A stretch of 64,000 bases of DNA from an uncultured Verrucomicrobiales bacterium (GTDB lineage Bacteria > Verrucomicrobiota > Verrucomicrobiia > Verrucomicrobiales > DEV007). This document shows, piece by piece, positions 2,520 through 47,286 of this stretch. Location of the stretch: assembly GCA_937891465.1 (NCBI GenBank), contig CALAHF010000080.1, positions 124,001-188,000 of the forward strand, written 5' to 3'. Both the position numbers and the translations under genes were made by a program. Each line of letters begins with the position of its first letter. The first letter of the stretch is position 1. The notes under the pieces were generated by a model. That model saw only the letters and a program-made list of their open reading frames with translations. It had not been told where the DNA came from and searched no databases.

Positions 2520-3701
2520 CTAGCGTAATTTCTCACCCAAATCACCTACGTATCCGGTTAATTCGAGAAAAGATTTTCCGATGACTTTTCCAGATCCATC
2601 GAGCACGTCGCCCGCGCCTTCCCAGTAACTGACCCCGCCGATCTTCCCGGTCATCTCCTGGTTTTTTATTGTTGGTCGACTTTTTAGAACGATTGGTTTT
2701 CCTGTTTTCGGATCTGTCGTTTTGATTGTTGGGCTGGTTGGATAATTTGCGCCGGTCGCTTTGCTCTTCCAAAAGCCGCCCGCTTTCCATTCATAGGAAT
2801 CCGGTTTCTGGACGGTGATCGAGCCATCCTGATCGATCCAGTTCAGGCTTGAAAACGGGCTCGGCTTTCCGTCTTCCTCTCGCAAGATGTATCCCATCAA
2901 TTCACGGCCATCGTCGAACTGAATTTGAATCCAATCCCAGCCAACCTGGTTCCGATCAAGTTGGCTGCTGGAAATTTCATGGTCCATCCACGCTTCGCCG
3001 GTCACCGCCATTTTCTCGCCCTTAAATTGTAATTCACCCGACACATCGAGTCGCGGATAAGTGATGTAATAACTCGCAGCTGAAGCATCGGCTCCTTTTT
3101 TGGAAATCCCGTCCTTCCCGAAAATCACGTGTGATTGGGCAGGTGAGAGTTTCAGGGAAAATCCCGCCTTGGATTGCACGGAACCGATCAGATCCATCTC
3201 TCCGTCGAATTGTCTTTTCAGCGTCCAGTTTCCGTTTCTTAAATCGAGATCTTCGACTTTTGAAAATGCATCCCAGCCTTCGCGATTCAGTCGTTCCTCG
3301 TGAAGAAAGGTGCCTGTATCGGGATCCGAAACCGCCATATGAGCCATGTAGATGTGCGTCTCGGCATCAACATTGGCCAATCGAAAAAACGTTGCCTGAA
3401 ATCCGAAGCGCCGCTCAGACTCCGATTTGAGATGGCCGGTGATATACCACCATTCGATTTTGAAATCCGGATGCGAGCCGTGGTCTCGCGGGAATTGAAA
3501 TTCGTAATTTGGCTGCGGAATCGAGAACGATTTTTCCTGCCCAAACGTCGCCGAGCCCATGAGAGCAAAAAGCAAAATTACAAAAAACGAAGCAACAGGG
3601 TGCGTTCGACGAACCAACAGGGTAGGTTCGTCTTGGCGTTTCGAACCAATAGGGTTGGTTCGATTAACGGACCCTATTGCTTCGTGAAAAATATTTTTCA
3701 T
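2520..3701 (-). CDS. attH: AttH-like secreted protein, lipocalin-like (CrtC/carotenoid-hydratase superfamily)
   Basis: 393-residue exported protein whose body matches AttH/CrtC-type double lipocalin-like proteins: FKIEWWYITGHL early, MAHMAVSD and a central WMDHEISSSQLDRNQVGWDW block. It overlaps the permease stop (ATGA at 3698-3701), in the same order as attEFGH operons. The N-terminus is odd. About 35 residues precede the signal peptide (HPVASFFVILLFALMGSATFG), and most of them are translated from a cluster of dispersed repeat units at 3588-3684. An original start nearer the signal peptide may have been displaced by the insertion. The substrate is unknown. The carotenoid-hydratase name is by homology only. 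Confidence 0.8.
   Translation of the reverse strand: MKNIFHEAIGSVNRTNPIGSKRQDEPTLLVRRTHPVASFFVILLFALMGSATFGQEKSFSIPQPNYEFQFPRDHGSHPDFKIEWWYITGHLKSESERRFGFQATFFRLANVDAETHIYMAHMAVSDPDTGTFLHEERLNREGWDAFSKVEDLDLRNGNWTLKRQFDGEMDLIGSVQSKAGFSLKLSPAQSHVIFGKDGISKKGADASAASYYITYPRLDVSGELQFKGEKMAVTGEAWMDHEISSSQLDRNQVGWDWIQIQFDDGRELMGYILREEDGKPSPFSSLNWIDQDGSITVQKPDSYEWKAGGFWKSKATGANYPTSPTIKTTDPKTGKPIVLKSRPTIKNQEMTGKIGGVSYWEGAGDVLDGSGKVIGKSFLELTGYVGDLGEKLR
3588..3684. repeat. Dispersed 21-bp unit, cluster of four copies inside the attH 5' coding region
   Basis: Three direct units (3588-3608, 3610-3630, 3642-3662) and one inverted unit (3664-3684). The second and third have perfectly complementary 6-nt arms (CGAACC / GGTTCG) around the cores AACAGGGTA and AATAGGGTT. 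The cluster is translated in frame as part of the AttH-like N-terminus. It is the densest occurrence in the window. Confidence 0.85.
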
Positions 3702-7957: not shown

Positions 7958-7988
7958 GAACCTTGGTTTAGTTCAATGGCTGATTTTG

Positions 7989-8031
7989 CGATTAAATAGG
8001 GTCGGTTCGACGAATCATCCTTATTCGGCTG
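7989..8031. repeat. Dispersed 21-bp unit, inverted pair (degenerate)
   Basis: Forward unit 7989-8009 carries the core AATAGGGTC. The inverted unit 8011-8031 is diverged, with core ATCCTTATT on the plus strand. It lies in the divergent intergenic region between the BASS transporter and the Gfo/Idh/MocA oxidoreductase. Confidence 0.65.
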
Positions 8032-8097
8032 AAGATCGTCATTTTGAAAAATCGCGTCGAATTTGCATTTTAGGCGGTTTCAGTTTATCGCCGAAGC

Positions 8098-13112: not shown

Positions 13113-13871
13113 ATGAAACACGTTTTCTTTTCCATTCTCGGCATTTTTGGAATGTTCGCAGTTGCCAATTCGCAGGATGATTCGTCAAAGAAATTCTATC
13201 TCATTGGAAATTCCCTGACGTGGGACACCGTTCCATCAAAACTTGATGGCGATGTTCAATGGCATGTGGGCTGCGGAAAAAGCCTCCCGTTTTTGTTCGA
13301 GAATCCAGCCGATCCTTGTGTGAAGACTTCAACGTTTTGGCCGGGTGCTTTAAAAGCAAAGCAATATGATTTTGTATCTGTTCAATCGCATTATGGTTCG
13401 ACGCTGGAGCAGGATGCTGTGGTGATTTCCGAGTGGATGGAGCTTCAGTCTAAGGCCATTTTTGTCATTCACACCGGCTGGGCAAGATCGGCTGAGCGTG
13501 GTGAAGAATGGGCCAGCACGGAGGCTGGTGGAGCGATGAAACATAGTCTCGCCTATATCGATGCGCTCATTGTGTTGCTGAAAAAAAATCATCCTGCTCG
13601 CGATATTCGTCGAACGTGGGCGATGGATTTGCTGGCGAAAGTCGCCGCCGACGCTGAAGCGGGAAAAGCTCCGATTTCAGATGTCGCTGAACTCTACCGC
13701 GATAAAATTCACATGAATGTCGTTACCGGCCGTTATCTCATGCACAACGCGATGCGCCAGGCTCTGGGGCAGCCGCGGTCCGTTGTGGGTTTTGAGAAAA
13801 TTGAGCCAAAGATGAAATTGTATCTAGATTCCGTTTTGGATACGCTCGATCAAAACGGAGGTTCCGAATAA
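13113..13871 (+). CDS. Secreted SGNH-hydrolase-like protein
   Basis: 252-residue protein with signal peptide MKHVFFSILGIFGMFAVANS and an early block FYLIGNSLTWDT. In GNSLT the Ser matches block I of SGNH esterases, although GDS is usual. A C-terminal DKIHMNVVTGRYL carries a His in the position expected for the catalytic D-x2-H. A deacetylase or carbohydrate esterase role is plausible but unproven. It runs convergently into the RluA gene with a 22-bp overlap of coding ends. Confidence 0.65.
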   Translation: MKHVFFSILGIFGMFAVANSQDDSSKKFYLIGNSLTWDTVPSKLDGDVQWHVGCGKSLPFLFENPADPCVKTSTFWPGALKAKQYDFVSVQSHYGSTLEQDAVVISEWMELQSKAIFVIHTGWARSAERGEEWASTEAGGAMKHSLAYIDALIVLLKKNHPARDIRRTWAMDLLAKVAADAEAGKAPISDVAELYRDKIHMNVVTGRYLMHNAMRQALGQPRSVVGFEKIEPKMKLYLDSVLDTLDQNGGSE

Positions 13872-14500
13872 AACGTCGTTTGCTCGCCCGTTGTCGGGTG
13901 CGAAAAAGTCAGTTCGCAGGCGTGCAATCTCATTTCCGCAGGGCCGGTACCATTTCCGTAAAGTGGATCACCGACAATTGGAATTCCGAAGCCTTTTTCA
14001 TGCGCGGAGTGTAATCGCAGTTGATGCGTTCGGCCAGTTACAGGCACAAATTCGATTCGAGACTGCCCGTTTTCGTCGCCAACTTTTTTCCAGTGGGAAA
14101 TGCCCATTTTTCCAAATTCAGGGTCGTAAATTTGATGCGGGCGGTTGTCGATATCGAGACGGAAGGGCAGCTCAATGGTTCCTGAATCCTCGTCTCGCTC
14201 AAGAATTCCATCGAGCAACGCGATGTAGCGTTTTTTGGTTTCCCGCTCCTGAAACTGCCTCGACAAATTTCGATGTGCTTCGGCAGTCAGGGTAACCAAA
14301 AGAATTCCTGACGTATCCATATCCAGCCGATGCGGCGCAGGTTGCTCGATGCAATCCGGGTACAACGCTCGAATCCGGGCCGTCACGCAATCTGCTTTCT
14401 CTGGTCCCCGACCCGGAACAGATAGCATCCCGCTGGGCTTTTCCACGACGACGAATTCGGCTTCTTCGTGAAGAATTTTTATTTGAAGGTCAGGATTCAT
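13850..14500 (-). CDS. RluA-family pseudouridine synthase, catalytic domain only
   Basis: 216-residue RNA pseudouridine synthase. VVEKPSGMLSVPGRG opens the fold, HRLDMDTSGILL carries the catalytic Asp, and GRTHQLRLHSAH is the conserved motif III. There is no S4 domain. In many Gammaproteobacteria this catalytic domain is the C-terminal half of one long protein whose N-terminal half matches the gene just upstream (14568-15320). Here the two are separate, with a repeat pair in the 67-bp gap. Likely substrates are tRNA or 23S rRNA positions as in RluA. Coding ends overlap those of the convergent SGNH gene. Confidence 0.9.
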   Translation of the reverse strand: MNPDLQIKILHEEAEFVVVEKPSGMLSVPGRGPEKADCVTARIRALYPDCIEQPAPHRLDMDTSGILLVTLTAEAHRNLSRQFQERETKKRYIALLDGILERDEDSGTIELPFRLDIDNRPHQIYDPEFGKMGISHWKKVGDENGQSRIEFVPVTGRTHQLRLHSAHEKGFGIPIVGDPLYGNGTGPAEMRLHACELTFSHPTTGEQTTFYSEPPF

Positions 14501-14513
14501 TTTTGGAGGAAAA

Positions 14514-14556
14514 CGAATGAATAGGGTCTGTTCATCGAACGTACCCTATTGGTTCG
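14514..14556. repeat. Dispersed 21-bp unit, inverted pair between the split RluA genes
   Basis: Forward unit 14514-14534 (core AATAGGGTC) and inverted unit 14536-14556 (core TACCCTATT on plus), making a long imperfect palindrome. It occupies most of the gap between the RluA N-terminal-module gene and the catalytic-domain gene. Confidence 0.85.
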
Positions 14557-14567
14557 TGTGAGTGATT

Positions 14568-15320
14568 CTAGTCCACACCACACAGCATGAAACCGAGGAT
14601 TGGCTGGCATTTGTCTTCGCAGCAGCTGAAGAATTCGCCGGGCTGTTTGCGGCCAGAACTGTTGGGTCCGCCCCAATAAAATTCAGCGAGGCCGAGTGGC
14701 TTGAGCCCGTTTTTCGCGGCGTGATTTAACAATTTTGGGGCGCAGCATTCACCGACGCCGCCGGGGATGGAATCGGGTTTTAGAAAAATGTCGCGCAGCG
14801 GACGGGTTTCGCCTCGGAAATTGGTGAACTCGTAAAAGTCATGGATCTCCCGCATCAAGTTTTGGGAGAATTGTTTTCGTTCCTCAAAAATGGCGGCTCC
14901 AGCGCTGGTTTCGCGTCCGTGACCATTCATTTCCGCAGTCATCGCTTTGATTTTCTGTTGCCCTGGGAAAACCTGCTCTGCGAAAATTTTGGGATCGAGC
15001 ATCGACGAAACCCAGCCGGGGACTTTGCGAATACCGCCGGCGAGCGATGAAAAGGCGCGCAATATTTTCTGTTCTCCCGATTCGTTTTCGCATTCTAAAA
15101 TGCCAAACATGTGGCCGCGATCTCCGGGAAACAGTTGGTCGAATCCGAATTGAGGGTCAGCTTGCGATTCATCATTGATGAAATCGAGTCGCTTGAATTT
15201 TTCGAAATCACGCAGCAATTCCTGCGCGAGTTCGATCGCATTGCCGGTCGGCAGCGAATGAACGCGGTCGCAATCGTGACAAAAGCCGAAACAGTTTTCA
15301 GAATGATTTTTGGACAACAT
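14568..15320 (-). CDS. N-terminal module of RluA-type pseudouridine synthase as a stand-alone protein
   Basis: 250-residue protein matching the long N-terminal extension of fused RluA-family proteins. It has a Cys-containing N-terminus (CFGFCHDCDRVHSLPTG), a central helical part and a strongly conserved end (GGVGECCAPKLLNHAAKNGL, LAEFYWGG, CCEDKCQPILGFML). In fused homologues this end leads straight into the catalytic domain. Cysteines at both ends suggest metal binding. It is encoded just upstream of the catalytic-domain gene. ATG at 15320 is preferred over 15362 because the longer frame would extend into the divergent glpD gene. The recognition of the fused relatives is from memory. Confidence 0.75.
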   Translation of the reverse strand: MLSKNHSENCFGFCHDCDRVHSLPTGNAIELAQELLRDFEKFKRLDFINDESQADPQFGFDQLFPGDRGHMFGILECENESGEQKILRAFSSLAGGIRKVPGWVSSMLDPKIFAEQVFPGQQKIKAMTAEMNGHGRETSAGAAIFEERKQFSQNLMREIHDFYEFTNFRGETRPLRDIFLKPDSIPGGVGECCAPKLLNHAAKNGLKPLGLAEFYWGGPNSSGRKQPGEFFSCCEDKCQPILGFMLCGVD

Positions 15321-15345
15321 GGCTGATTGCGTGATCTGTAACCCA

Positions 15346-16851
15346 ATGAACCGATCTCGCATGCTTGATCAACTGGCTGATTCATTGGTGAAATGGGACA
15401 TCATTATTATTGGTGGTGGTGCAACGGGACTTGGTATCGCGGTCGATTCAGCTACCCGGGGCTTGAAAACCTTGCTTGTGGAGCAGGCTGATTTTTCTGA
15501 AGGCACATCCTCGCGCAGCACGAAATTGGTCCACGGCGGCGTTCGCTATCTTCGTGGAGGCGAGATTGGGCTTGTTCGCGAATCGCTGCGGGAACGCGGT
15601 CGATTGTTGAAGAATGCAGCCAATTTGGTGAAACCGTTATCGTTCGTCGTGCCAGCTTATCGCTGGTATGAGCGATTTTTTTATGGGGTTGGGCTGGTGA
15701 TGTATGATTTTCTGGCTGGAAAATTAGGGATCGAAAAAACGGGTCATTTTTCTAAAGAAAAAACGCTTAACCATATTCCGAACCTGAATCCCGATGGCCT
15801 TTACGGCAGTACGTTTTATTGGGATGGGCAGTTTGATGACGCGCGTTTAGCCGTGGCGATGGCGCGAACTGCGGCCGCGAATGATGCCACGGTTTTGAAT
15901 TATGTGCGGGTTAACGGTCTGATAAAAAACGACTCTGACAAAGTAGTCGGAATCGAAGCTGAAGATCAGATTTCGGGTACTAAATATGAAGCGGTCGGAA
16001 AAATCGTCATCAACGCGACGGGTGTTTTTACCGATTCCGTTCGCAAAATGGATGATCCGAAATCGGCTAATGTGATCCAGCCGAGTCAGGGAATTCATAT
16101 TGTGCTCGATGCGGAATTTCTCGGTGGAGACACGGCGATCATGATCCCAAACACGGATGACGGGCGCGTTCTGTTTGCGATTCCGTGGTATGGAAAAGTG
16201 CTGCTAGGAACCACTGACACGGGTAATGTTCCAGTGGAATTGGAGCCGAAACCGCGTCAGGAGGAAATTGATTATCTGATCGAACACGCGGGGCGGTATT
16301 TGCAGAACAAGCCGACGCACGCGGATATTCGAGCAACGTTTGCCGGGCTGCGACCGTTGGTGAAACCTCCGGAAACCGGCGCTGGTGATACGTCGAAAAT
16401 TTCGCGAAGCCACGGTCTGTTCGTGAGTGATTCGGGCCTGCTGACCATGGCTGGCGGGAAATGGACAACTTATCGCCAAATGGCGGAAGATGCGGTGGGC
16501 CGGGCAATTGAGCTTACGGGGATTTCTACGAACCAACCCTGTTCGACCGGTGAACTGACCCTGTTGGATCGTGAAGATGAGGAAGTGGAAGCGCTTGCTA
16601 AAAAGGATCCCGCATTGCTGGAAAAACTGGATCCGGCTCTGCCGTGGCGGATGGGAGATGTGGTCTACGCAGTAAGAAATGAAATGGCTCAGACCCTTCT
16701 CGATGTGTTGTCGCGTCGGACTCGTATTATGTTTTTGGATGAGACGGCGGCGAAAAAATGTTCGCATCCCGTAGTGCAACTAATGGCACGCGAGCTTGGA
16801 AAAAACGAAGCGTGGATTGCGGAACAATTAAAAATACTGCGCGAAATGTGA
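15346..16851 (+). CDS. glpD: Aerobic glycerol-3-phosphate dehydrogenase (FAD)
   Basis: 501-residue peripheral membrane flavoprotein that oxidises glycerol-3-phosphate to dihydroxyacetone phosphate and feeds the quinone pool. It has the FAD dinucleotide fold IIIIGGGATGLG near the N-terminus, SSRSTKLVHGGVRYL, and a substrate and FAD C-terminal motif GGKWTTYRQMAEDA. ATG at 15346 gives the usual GlpD N-terminus (MNRSRMLDQL). Frames from 15310 would add an unusual leader. The gap to the divergent RluA-module gene is only 25 bp, so the promoters must lie inside the coding sequences. Codons for about residues 395-409 (16529-16571) come from two dispersed repeat units, in the linker after the FAD domain (PCSTGELTLLDRE). 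Confidence 0.93.
   Translation: MNRSRMLDQLADSLVKWDIIIIGGGATGLGIAVDSATRGLKTLLVEQADFSEGTSSRSTKLVHGGVRYLRGGEIGLVRESLRERGRLLKNAANLVKPLSFVVPAYRWYERFFYGVGLVMYDFLAGKLGIEKTGHFSKEKTLNHIPNLNPDGLYGSTFYWDGQFDDARLAVAMARTAAANDATVLNYVRVNGLIKNDSDKVVGIEAEDQISGTKYEAVGKIVINATGVFTDSVRKMDDPKSANVIQPSQGIHIVLDAEFLGGDTAIMIPNTDDGRVLFAIPWYGKVLLGTTDTGNVPVELEPKPRQEEIDYLIEHAGRYLQNKPTHADIRATFAGLRPLVKPPETGAGDTSKISRSHGLFVSDSGLLTMAGGKWTTYRQMAEDAVGRAIELTGISTNQPCSTGELTLLDREDEEVEALAKKDPALLEKLDPALPWRMGDVVYAVRNEMAQTLLDVLSRRTRIMFLDETAAKKCSHPVVQLMARELGKNEAWIAEQLKILREM
16529..16571. repeat. Dispersed 21-bp unit, two copies inside glpD coding sequence
   Basis: Units 16529-16549 and 16551-16571, both in inverted orientation relative to the consensus. 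The second matches nearly throughout (arms TGAACT / GGATCG, core GACCCTGTT on plus). They are translated in frame within GlpD. The local protein pattern (PC-x-T) is also normal for GlpD, so exaptation or partial coincidence cannot be separated by eye. Confidence 0.55.
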
Positions 16852-22048: not shown

Positions 22049-22058
22049 CTCGTTTTTT

Positions 22059-22101
22059 CGATCCAACAGGGTTGATTTGGCGAACGTACCCTATTGGTTC
22101 G
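22059..22101. repeat. Dispersed 21-bp unit, inverted pair
   Basis: Forward unit 22059-22079 (core AACAGGGTT) and inverted unit 22081-22101, which is identical to the inverted unit at 14536-14556. The TAG stop of the rhodanese gene (22091-22093) is read from inside the inverted unit. Confidence 0.85.
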
Positions 22102-22675
22102 TGGAATCCATTTTTTCCAAATCAGCTTGTTTTTCCTCCTTTACAAGTCGGCCCCAGAATTCATTAAACGGATGAACCTTATTCGCAGGTTCTCCCCCGG
22201 GAGTGACCAGATTGCGGTCTTCATTCGCCCAGGCAAAGATCGATCCCCTCACGTTCTTGGCGTTTTTGACTCCCGCTTTGTTCAATTCATCAACAACCAC
22301 GGCGGAGCGATAACCGACCGAGCAATAAACCGCGATGGTTTCGGGCTTTGGATCGGCCGTTTTTAGATATTCGGAGACATCAGCGGCCGATTCAAGATTC
22401 ACTGCACCGGGAATTTTTGAAATGGCGAATTCGTCAGGAGCTCGCGTGTCGACTATTAAAAGAGGAACCGCGCCTTTTTCGTTTGCGGTCATCAATGTGG
22501 CGAGGGTTCCGGTGGAAATGTGATCCACGCTGGTAAATTCACCCTCGATCTCAGCCGATTTATTTTCGAGAGAGCTCATGGCTTGCAGCTTGTTGTAGCC
22601 GCACTGGCTCACCCCGATCAGGACGCAGCCCACCAGCAAAATCAATCCGAGCCAAACTAGAGTCTGCGTTCGCAT
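22091..22675 (-). CDS. Membrane-anchored rhodanese-domain protein
   Basis: 194 residues: an N-terminal membrane helix (TLVWLGLILLVGCVLIGV), a short linker (CGYNKLQAM) that resembles the start of LemA proteins, then one rhodanese domain (about 60-165). The active-site loop is YCSVGYRSA with the catalytic Cys, and LLIVDTRAPDEFAISKIPGA is the usual first half. It faces the periplasm or cytoplasm depending on topology and may transfer sulfur or act as a redox or phosphate-binding module. The last codons (MDSTNQ and stop) are encoded by a dispersed repeat unit, so the natural C-terminus was probably altered. lspA follows 35 bp upstream on the same strand. Confidence 0.85.
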   Translation of the reverse strand: MRTQTLVWLGLILLVGCVLIGVSQCGYNKLQAMSSLENKSAEIEGEFTSVDHISTGTLATLMTANEKGAVPLLIVDTRAPDEFAISKIPGAVNLESAADVSEYLKTADPKPETIAVYCSVGYRSAVVVDELNKAGVKNAKNVRGSIFAWANEDRNLVTPGGEPANKVHPFNEFWGRLVKEEKQADLEKMDSTNQ

Positions 22676-28312: not shown

Positions 28313-29882
28313 ATGGACGACCCAAAACGAAACGAAATTGGGGCGACAGTTTTCGCCATTTTACTTGGCCTCGGCGCCATGTTTTTTACTGGATGGCTTT
28401 TTACAGCCGGCGGATGCTCTGATCAGGGCGCTGACCACAAGGTAATTACCAATCAGATCGCCGGATCAGGGAATGCAGCGAAAGCAAATGCTGGAAACAA
28501 AGCGGGTGCAGGCTCGGATTCTGCTGAAGTCGCCGTTTTGCAGGCAAAGCTTGATGCAGCGAATGCAGATATTGAGGCTGAAGCGGCTCGCCGCGCTGAA
28601 CTGGCGGCCCAAAAGCTCGACCTTGAAGCCAAATTGAAAGCAGCTGGGGATACTTCCGGTTTAGAACTGAAAATCAATAACCTTCAGGCTGAAGTTGATA
28701 CGCTCAAGGGAACGCAGGTCAAACTGGACGGAGCGATGAAAGCCAATACGGGGCTCGAGGGAAAACTTGCTGTGCTTATGGCGACGCTCGGAACTGCAAG
28801 CAAAGCGGAATCCGAATTGAAAGCAAAATTTGCTGCAGCTACTCAAGCAGAAGCTGATCTGAAAGCTAAAATCACGGGACTCAACGGCAAAGTTGATGCC
28901 GCGACCAAAGCGGAAGCGGATTTAAAAGCAAAGCTTGCTGCGATGGGCAAGCAAGCAGGGGCGGCTGACATGGCCAAAGCTGAAGCAGGCAAGCTCCAGG
29001 CGCGCATTACTGATTTGGAGAAAAAGCTTAACGAAGCTGGAAAAGCGAAACTCGCGATGTCCGCAAACGCTGGTGACGCAACGAAAAAGCTCCAAGCTGA
29101 TTTCGACGCGATGAAAGCCAAGTCTGCCGCCGATGCAAAAACCGCTGCCGACAAATTGGCGGCTGCGGAGAAGAAGCTGGCTGAGTCATCTAAAGCGATG
29201 GCTGCGAATGCGGGTGATGCAGAAACTTCAAGCGCAACTCGACGCGGCGAATAAAAAGGCCAAAACTGACGGCAATGCCTGGAACGCGGCGAAAACCAAG
29301 TTGGGTGAAACGAACGGTGATCTTCAGAAGCAAATTGATGCGTTGAAAAAGCAACTGGCTGCCAAAGCAGCGGCAATGCCTGCTGCTCCCGCAGGAGCGC
29401 TTGCAGCTGCCGGGGCTGGGCTTCCTGACCTCGATCTTCCATTGCTCGTGAATGATCCGGCCAAGTTGAATCCAGATTTTAAAAATCTCTTTGCGAACCT
29501 TCGCGGAATCGAAGACTCCACCGCAGCACGCGAGAAAGCCTACAAAGAAATTCCCGGTGGTGGAAAATACGAGCCATCGCTTCGTATCCCTTTCGGTTCA
29601 GGCAGCGATTACATTTCCGGAGCTGATAACAAGAAAATTGTAGCTCTCGTGAAAGAGGCCGGCCCCGATGCGAAATTCCTCGCCGTTGGATATGCGAGCA
29701 CGGATGAATCAAACGAGACCAACTATCGCCTCTCGTCACAACGCGCTTCCGACGTTGGCAAAAAGATTGCTGAAGGACTTGGTTCAGAGAAGAACGTTCA
29801 AGCGGTTTACTTCGGTCAGACCGGACGTTTCAGCGGGCAGAAGAGCCCGAACCGGATTGTCGAAATCTGGCGTGTGAAGTGA
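28313..29882 (+). pseudogene. OmpA-family coiled-coil protein, interrupted by a +1 frameshift
   Basis: Two overlapping frames (28313-29254 and 29133-29882) form one ~522-residue protein: an N-terminal membrane helix (VFAILLGLGAMFFTGWLF), a long Ala/Lys/Leu coiled coil (about residues 60-340), a Pro/Ala linker and a C-terminal OmpA-like peptidoglycan-binding domain (GYASTDESNETNYRLSSQRA). The switch is near 29218-29228 at GATGCAGAAACTT. Removing one A rejoins GDAELQAQLDAANKK, and 1570 nt is 3x523+1. It would tether the envelope to peptidoglycan. It may be a true mutation or a base-calling error, because the same 9-mer breaks the pyruvyl transferase gene. Confidence 0.75.
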
Positions 29883-29917
29883 TAGGGTTGGTTCGCTGAA
29901 TCAACCCTGTTGGTTCG
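29875..29917. repeat. Dispersed 21-bp unit, inverted pair at the end of the OmpA-like gene
   Basis: Forward unit 29875-29895 (core GATAGGGTT) overlaps the stop codon of the OmpA-like gene. The inverted unit is 29897-29917 (core AACCCTGTT on plus). As a hairpin in the transcript it could protect or terminate the 3' end. Confidence 0.8.
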
Positions 29918-29971
29918 AAAAACGAAAAGCAGCTTCGACTTAATTAGTAGGAGCTTTTTTTGTGCACTGAT

Positions 29972-34314: not shown

Positions 34315-34321
34315 ACTTATA

Positions 34322-34364
34322 CGAATCAACAGGGTTTGATCGACGAATCAACCCTCCTGAGTAA
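34322..34364. repeat. Dispersed 21-bp unit, inverted pair just upstream of uxaC
   Basis: Forward unit 34322-34342 (core AACAGGGTT) and inverted unit 34344-34364 (core AACCCTCCT on plus). It lies 7 bp upstream of the uxaC start codon, inside its 5' leader or promoter. Confidence 0.8.
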
Positions 34365-34628
34365 CAAAAAGGCCAATTTGGTTGTAGTGTAATTATTTAA
34401 AGGTTGTTGTGAATCGCCTCAAAGCGTTGTGGTTTCCGTCTTTTTGTTTGCGAAGGCTATAATGTGCCCAGCGCATGGCTAGCTACTGGATCGTAGAAAG
34501 CGATTTTTTCTAGTATCCATCAATTGTAAATCTGGTGTTTCGCGGGATTTTTGATTGTATTTCTCCAAAACCAAGGAAATTACGTGCAACCATCACGAAG
34601 TCTTCGCAAAGCCACACAATCGATCACG
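34365..34628. other. Intergenic region between uxaC and the Na/Pi cotransporter gene
   Basis: The gene-free stretch of 314 bp (34315-34628) contains the repeat at 34322-34364 and little else. A TATAAT at 34458-34463 could be a -10 element for the plus-strand gene, but no good -35 is seen. A longer open frame from 34551 exists but lacks transporter-like sequence before 34629. Confidence 0.4.
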
Positions 34629-47169: not shown

Positions 47170-47247
47170 GGTTTCAAAGCGTAAACCATATAGTGATTGC
47201 CCACTGTTTGAAAAAGGCGGGAATACGATTCAATGCTGTCTGTTCGA

Positions 47248-47268
47248 TAATCCAACAGGGTTGGATCG
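47248..47268. repeat. Dispersed 21-bp unit, single forward copy
   Basis: Core AACAGGGTT, right arm GGATCG and left arm TAATCC. It lies upstream of the DUF1549 gene start and 3' of the modular SH3-tailed gene, in the only gap of this block. Confidence 0.75.
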
Positions 47269-47286
47269 AAACGGTGAGCGAAATAA

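Follow-up and report, generated by a model that had tools for sequence, protein, structure and literature searches.

The locus described here is probably a two-gene form of TrcP, in which a separate cytidine deaminase, likely directed at C32 of tRNA-Tyr, and a separate pseudouridine synthase would act one after the other, possibly in a complex. In Vibrio cholerae, TrcP (VCA0104) converts C32 of tRNA-Tyr in two steps, first to U and from there to pseudouridine (PMC9553926). The gene pair lies in a 64,000-nt stretch of DNA from an uncultured Verrucomicrobiales bacterium, which is referred to as the window. The preliminary description had recognised an RluA-type enzyme divided between two genes, with modules that are fused elsewhere, and this part stood; it missed the identity of the N-terminal module as a TrcP-like deaminase and the membership of the repeat in a large dispersed family. 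Since this module matches the cytidine deaminase half of TrcP, the locus would be more than a split RluA, namely a tRNA editor encoded by two genes. The features of the locus are as follows:

13850-14500, minus strand: downstream gene, predicted RluA-family pseudouridine synthase of 216 aa (PF00849, NF007543, PDB 2i82)
14321-14332, minus strand: HRLD motif read in the sequence, with D60 as presumed catalytic aspartate from RluA-family knowledge
14513-14557, no strand assigned: one copy of the dispersed palindromic repeat, 45 nt long, within the 67-nt gap
14568-15320, minus strand: upstream gene, predicted TrcP-NTD-like cytidine deaminase module, a separate protein of 250 aa (homology to fused N-terminal halves, AF2 model)
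14607-14621, minus strand: codons C234 to C238, counterparts of the TrcP zinc ligands C324 and C328
14682-14684, minus strand: codon E213, counterpart of the TrcP catalytic E303
14745-14747, minus strand: codon C192, counterpart of the TrcP zinc ligand C282
14841-14993, minus strand: two-helix hairpin, residues 110-160, at the place of the long helical tRNA-binding domain of TrcP (alignment and model)
15255-15278, minus strand: zinc-knuckle-like GxCxxCxxxH motif, residues C15-H22, a beta hairpin in the model that may bind zinc

Both open reading frames were found where they had been described, as neighbours on the minus strand. The upstream frame, for which a longer reading (14568-15362, minus strand) is also open, ends in PILGFMLCGVD and a TAG stop, four residues past the ILGFML block, and the next ATG follows 67 nt downstream of this stop in another frame. 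Of the 67 nt that separate the two genes, 45 nt are palindrome, a real inverted repeat with arms at 14513-14533 and 14537-14557, so that the reported order of conserved block, stop, inverted repeat and catalytic domain in a different frame was borne out. Promoter and terminator scans of the locus gave no more hits than in shuffled sequences. At its other end, the synthase gene overlaps a plus-strand open reading frame (13113-13871) tail to tail by 22 nt (window positions 13850-13871).

The predicted deaminase and the adjoining synthase

The upstream protein has no match in Pfam, NCBIfam or PHROGs, and a PDB sequence search with this N-terminal module (N-module) returned nothing. Fused proteins from Vibrio, Pseudoalteromonas, Bacteroides and Prevotella have an N-terminal half that is homologous to it (tblastn E-values of 1e-22 for Vibrio and 1e-21 for Pseudoalteromonas), and it was these fused relatives that pointed to TrcP. 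TrcP needs C282, C324, C328 and E303 (PMC9553926), and the comparison, in which Vibrio homologues of TrcP and not V. cholerae TrcP itself were aligned, places C192, E213, C234 and C238 of the upstream protein opposite C282, E303, C324 and C328 with identical spacing, C-21-E-21-C-4-C (offsets 21, 42 and 46). The four residues are invariant across 20 aligned N-modules. The AF2 model of the upstream protein is confident (pLDDT 90.4, pTM 0.89) and shows an alpha/beta structure broken by the two-helix hairpin; a Foldseek search of the PDB with this model yielded no meaningful match and no deaminase, and in the original study the deaminase likeness of TrcP had come from a Dali search with the CDA domain (PMC9553926). 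An AF2 model of one fused homologue, computed for domain packing, was left unused (pLDDT 60.6, pTM 0.54). By its sequence, the upstream gene corresponds to the TrcP N-terminal half and is a predicted zinc-dependent cytidine deaminase, which gives a module without a match in Pfam, NCBIfam or PHROGs a probable function.

A basic patch on the helical domain of TrcP is required for tRNA binding (PMC9553926). In the AF2 model of the upstream protein, the hairpin at this place consists of the helices 110-134 and 139-160. The first catalytic Cys follows the GxMFG motif at a distance of 123 residues in the window protein and of 116-127 residues in nearly all of its clade and the f27 relatives, as opposed to 208-220 in the long-arm forms of Vibrio, Pseudoalteromonas and Bacteroidota. 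The region of the basic patch is an alignment gap in the window protein, and with the arm and the motif distance this short, the patch is without a counterpart here; the substrate or the binding mode may therefore differ from those of TrcP. The GxCxxCxxxH motif is present in the short-arm members with a complete N-terminus (as AxCxxCxxxH in Desulfobaculum), except for the lone module L043, and the motif-bearing members, apart from Desulfobaculum, also have a cysteine at position 77 (C77); long-arm forms have neither. The motif may be a zinc knuckle that has taken over tRNA binding. The missing arm and patch and the gained motif would also suit a protein that has lost or changed its activity and now, for example, does no more than bind tRNA for the synthase or deaminates another nucleotide, but as none of the four deaminase residues varies within the family, we regard this as quite improbable.

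The downstream protein passes the gathering score of PF00849 (E = 2.7e-28; 99.6 bits against 26.8) and matches RluA in the PDB (2i82, E = 2.2e-37), while its 141.5 bits against the RluA equivalog NF007543 lie below the cut-off of 286. Its gene carries the motifs HRLDMDTSG and GRTHQLR, and we take D60 of HRLD to be the catalytic aspartate, as is established for the RluA family. The genome encodes eight PF00849 proteins, this one included; judged by these matches, the downstream protein is the RluA-like pseudouridine synthase half of a TrcP-like pair.

Age of the split and the palindrome in the gap

Two explanations had been put forward for the gap, namely that the repeat may have split a fused gene, or that the split form is ancestral in the lineage. 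Two genomes of the same taxonomic family (G019 and G455) carry a pair that is divided at the identical point, with matching ends and an 8-nt overlap, and the repeat is absent both from the gap and from the surrounding 5-kb loci. Split pairs without the repeat also occur in G280 (4-nt overlap), in Lentisphaeria (L031, 8-nt overlap), on a Desulfobaculum plasmid (genes 6 nt apart) and in Myxococcota/Deltaproteobacteria (L025-L030, L032), where the genes overlap by 4-11 nt wherever the start can be placed; L027 and L029 have no ATG, GTG or TTG start near the junction, and their frames continue from the same place. The two-gene adjacency was found across Myxococcota, Thermodesulfobacteriota and Verrucomicrobiota. 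Cultivable carriers of the separate genes include a myxobacterium and Desulfobaculum bizertense, whereas most of the genomes compared are metagenome assemblies. The fused form was found in a single further family of the phylum (f27) and, outside it, in spirochaetes, Bacteroides, Prevotella and three gammaproteobacterial genera, Vibrio, Photobacterium and Pseudoalteromonas, for which the reported fusion in Gammaproteobacteria is thus confirmed.

According to the N-module tree, the window belongs to a clade of 11 rows, every one of them split, with a support of 100/100, which favours the ancestral split. The synthase tree agrees weakly (71/98), the three family members not forming one clade there (p-AU 0.067), and the concatenated tree requires a minimum of three changes between the split and fused states. 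The neighbours in the concatenated tree (L021 beside L035) also point to Verrucomicrobiota as the phylum of the window. The repeat-free split relatives and the all-split clade mean that the split is older than the repeat at this locus, and that the palindrome came into the gap afterwards and did not cause the split. A dispersed repeat that was inserted into a fused gene and divided it in this lineage would explain why the repeat sits precisely in the gap, and the same phylum does contain fused forms; however, with the same split and ends in the repeat-free loci of G019, G455 and the Myxococcota, the all-split clade, and a repeat that belongs to a genome-wide extragenic family, this course of events is hardly credible. 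With the split as the older event, the palindrome may have exchanged a translational coupling based on overlap for a spaced leader containing a hairpin. Within a clade of fused proteins, one split pair was observed (L033:2905-4456) with a 40-nt gap and 18 extra residues beyond the usual end; it arose either through a separate, recent split or through faulty assembly.

The arms of the palindrome comprise 21 nt each and are 81% complementary, and as RNA it has a folding energy of -18.4 kcal/mol (z = -4.65). The repeat core AATAGGGT-N15-ACCCTATT is present in two copies in the window, compared with 0.00 expected, and in 50 copies in the genome, with 0 for the reversed control. The wider, strict pattern AAYAGGGT-N13-17-ACCCTRTT gave at least 265 copies in this genome; the second species of the genus has 525, and up to 148 and 92 were counted in the genera g12 and g2, respectively. 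The pattern is absent from the other 15 of the 18 genera of the family, with a reversed control of 0 or 1. A covariance model of the repeat recovers the same places. The consensus of 51 columns is TTTACGAACCAATAGGGTnnGTTCGnCGAACnnACCCTATTGGTTCGTGAA; across genera, the outer core is fixed and the inner arms vary, and copies are sometimes arranged in pairs with 54-nt spacing. The copies in the window are located at:

3638-3688
7985-8035
14510-14560
16525-16575
22055-22105
29871-29921
34318-34368
47222-47272

Most of them lie outside genes, in the approximately 7% of the window without long open reading frames. The degenerate copy at 16525-16575 lies within a glycerol-3-phosphate dehydrogenase-like open reading frame (15310-16851) and is apparently translated. 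Two possible identities of the repeat were rejected. For a conserved RNA structure, there was no match in Rfam and no covariation of the arms beyond shuffles, the latter being a weak test because the copies had been chosen by their palindromic core; for a RAYT-driven REP, no strict copy lies near any of 21 Y1_Tnp loci, of which one, a fragment, belongs to this genome and the other 20 to eight related genomes. The fragment in this genome (L041), its only one, is a degenerate Y1-type transposase with other repeats around it and without the window palindrome. No relevant publication on this repeat in Verrucomicrobia was found. With copies throughout the genome, most of those in the window extragenic and none near a Y1 transposase, the palindrome in the gap is one dispersed extragenic copy.

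Substrate and course of the proposed edit

Three of 75 genomes in the family, and 8 of 388 in the phylum, contain the upstream module. A close homologue of the synthase occurs in four of the 75, three of which are exactly the deaminase carriers (Fisher's exact p of about 6e-5, calculated by hand and with kinship ignored); the family member G005 has the synthase, and no deaminase was detected in it. This lone homologue (L126, G005:C168) is located at a contig end, downstream of a 5S rRNA-like sequence. Conversely, TrcP-NTD-like modules without an adjoining synthase were observed at L036:2785-3558, L037:198-986 and L043:1709-2603, in genomes that carry RluA-like genes elsewhere; L036 and L037 share a similar neighbourhood with an adjoining elongation factor P-like gene. 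These three modules are candidate stand-alone C-to-U tRNA editors.

The only tRNA-Tyr found in the genome has the anticodon arm GCAGA-CTGTAAA-TCTGC with C32, and among the 35 tRNAs examined, position 32 is C in 16 and U in 18. C32 is thought to be common in bacterial tRNA-Tyr, and its presence here is therefore permissive and does not discriminate; E. coli K-12, which is not known to have trcP, has C32 in this tRNA as well. In the proposed reaction, the upstream zinc-dependent deaminase would act on a cytidine in tRNA, most likely C32 of tRNA-Tyr, and turn it into uridine, which the downstream RluA-like synthase would then isomerise to pseudouridine, the two enzymes acting as separate proteins and possibly in a complex. 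For this pair, we infer the enzymatic activity, the substrate, the sequential action and any complex. Counting against a two-gene TrcP are the blank Foldseek search, the absent patch, the synthase-only genome G005 and the failure of the Vibrio halves to form pseudouridine.

TrcP has been described as one enzyme that requires a link between its two halves and whose helical arm keeps the tRNA tethered during both reactions; the Vibrio TrcP-NTD alone produces U32, and in vitro the free NTD and free CTD together formed U32 and no pseudouridine (PMC9553926). A natural two-gene form must overcome this block in another way, or stop at U. The latter would apply if the upstream protein were a stand-alone C-to-U editor and the synthase an ordinary RluA acting on U32 of other tRNAs or on 23S rRNA, the two being merely co-transcribed without any conversion of C to pseudouridine. 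The Vibrio experiments, the lone N-modules, the synthase-only genome G005 and the 18 of 35 tRNAs with U32 in this genome all fit such an arrangement, but the adjacency is kept across three phyla, the same modules have been fused repeatedly elsewhere, and the close synthase is nearly missing from family members without the deaminase, so that we consider it unlikely. For the preferred reading of a sequential two-gene editor, a more far-reaching version is possible, although we hold it only tentatively: two free enzymes would convert C to pseudouridine without the arm, by means of the zinc knuckle and perhaps a transient complex, channelling would be dispensable, and the lone deaminases would leave U32. 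If this were true, covalent channelling would not be essential, and some genomes would keep a U32 that is not genetically encoded. Since the separated Vibrio halves made no pseudouridine, the natural two-protein form is a test of the channelling model, which becomes directly testable with the widespread armless two-gene form and the lone deaminase modules. The search for bacterial tRNA editing is also widened to Myxococcota and Verrucomicrobiota.

Comparison with REP elements, RluA and TrcP

Like REP elements and REPINs, the repeat in the gap is a short extragenic palindrome in hundreds of copies; unlike them, it has no GTAG or CGTC tag in its 51-column consensus and no linked Y1 transposase. 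For the downstream protein, the nearest curated family is that of E. coli RluA, the pseudouridine synthase of U32 in tRNA and U746 in 23S rRNA, from which it differs in scoring less than half of the RluA cut-off and in adjoining a deaminase gene.

According to the original study, all aligned TrcP homologues hold both halves (PMC9553926), and a paper from 2025 describes trcP as so far Vibrio-specific (PMC12588516); in the openly accessible main texts of the literature, we found no report of a split TrcP or of stand-alone deaminase modules. In common with TrcP, the window has a homologous deaminase module that carries the C-E-C-C residues at unchanged spacing and, next to it, an RluA-family synthase module, and its genome also contains the candidate substrate, C32 of tRNA-Tyr. 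TrcP is one polypeptide with a 135-residue helical domain that bears the basic patch, whereas the window has two open reading frames, separated by a stop codon and the 67-nt gap, and a helical hairpin of about 50 residues without the patch; its family has in addition the GxCxxCxxxH motif and, in nearly all members, the paired cysteine C77. Although the pair thus departs from two features that define TrcP, the single polypeptide and the long helical arm, we infer that it would work like TrcP.
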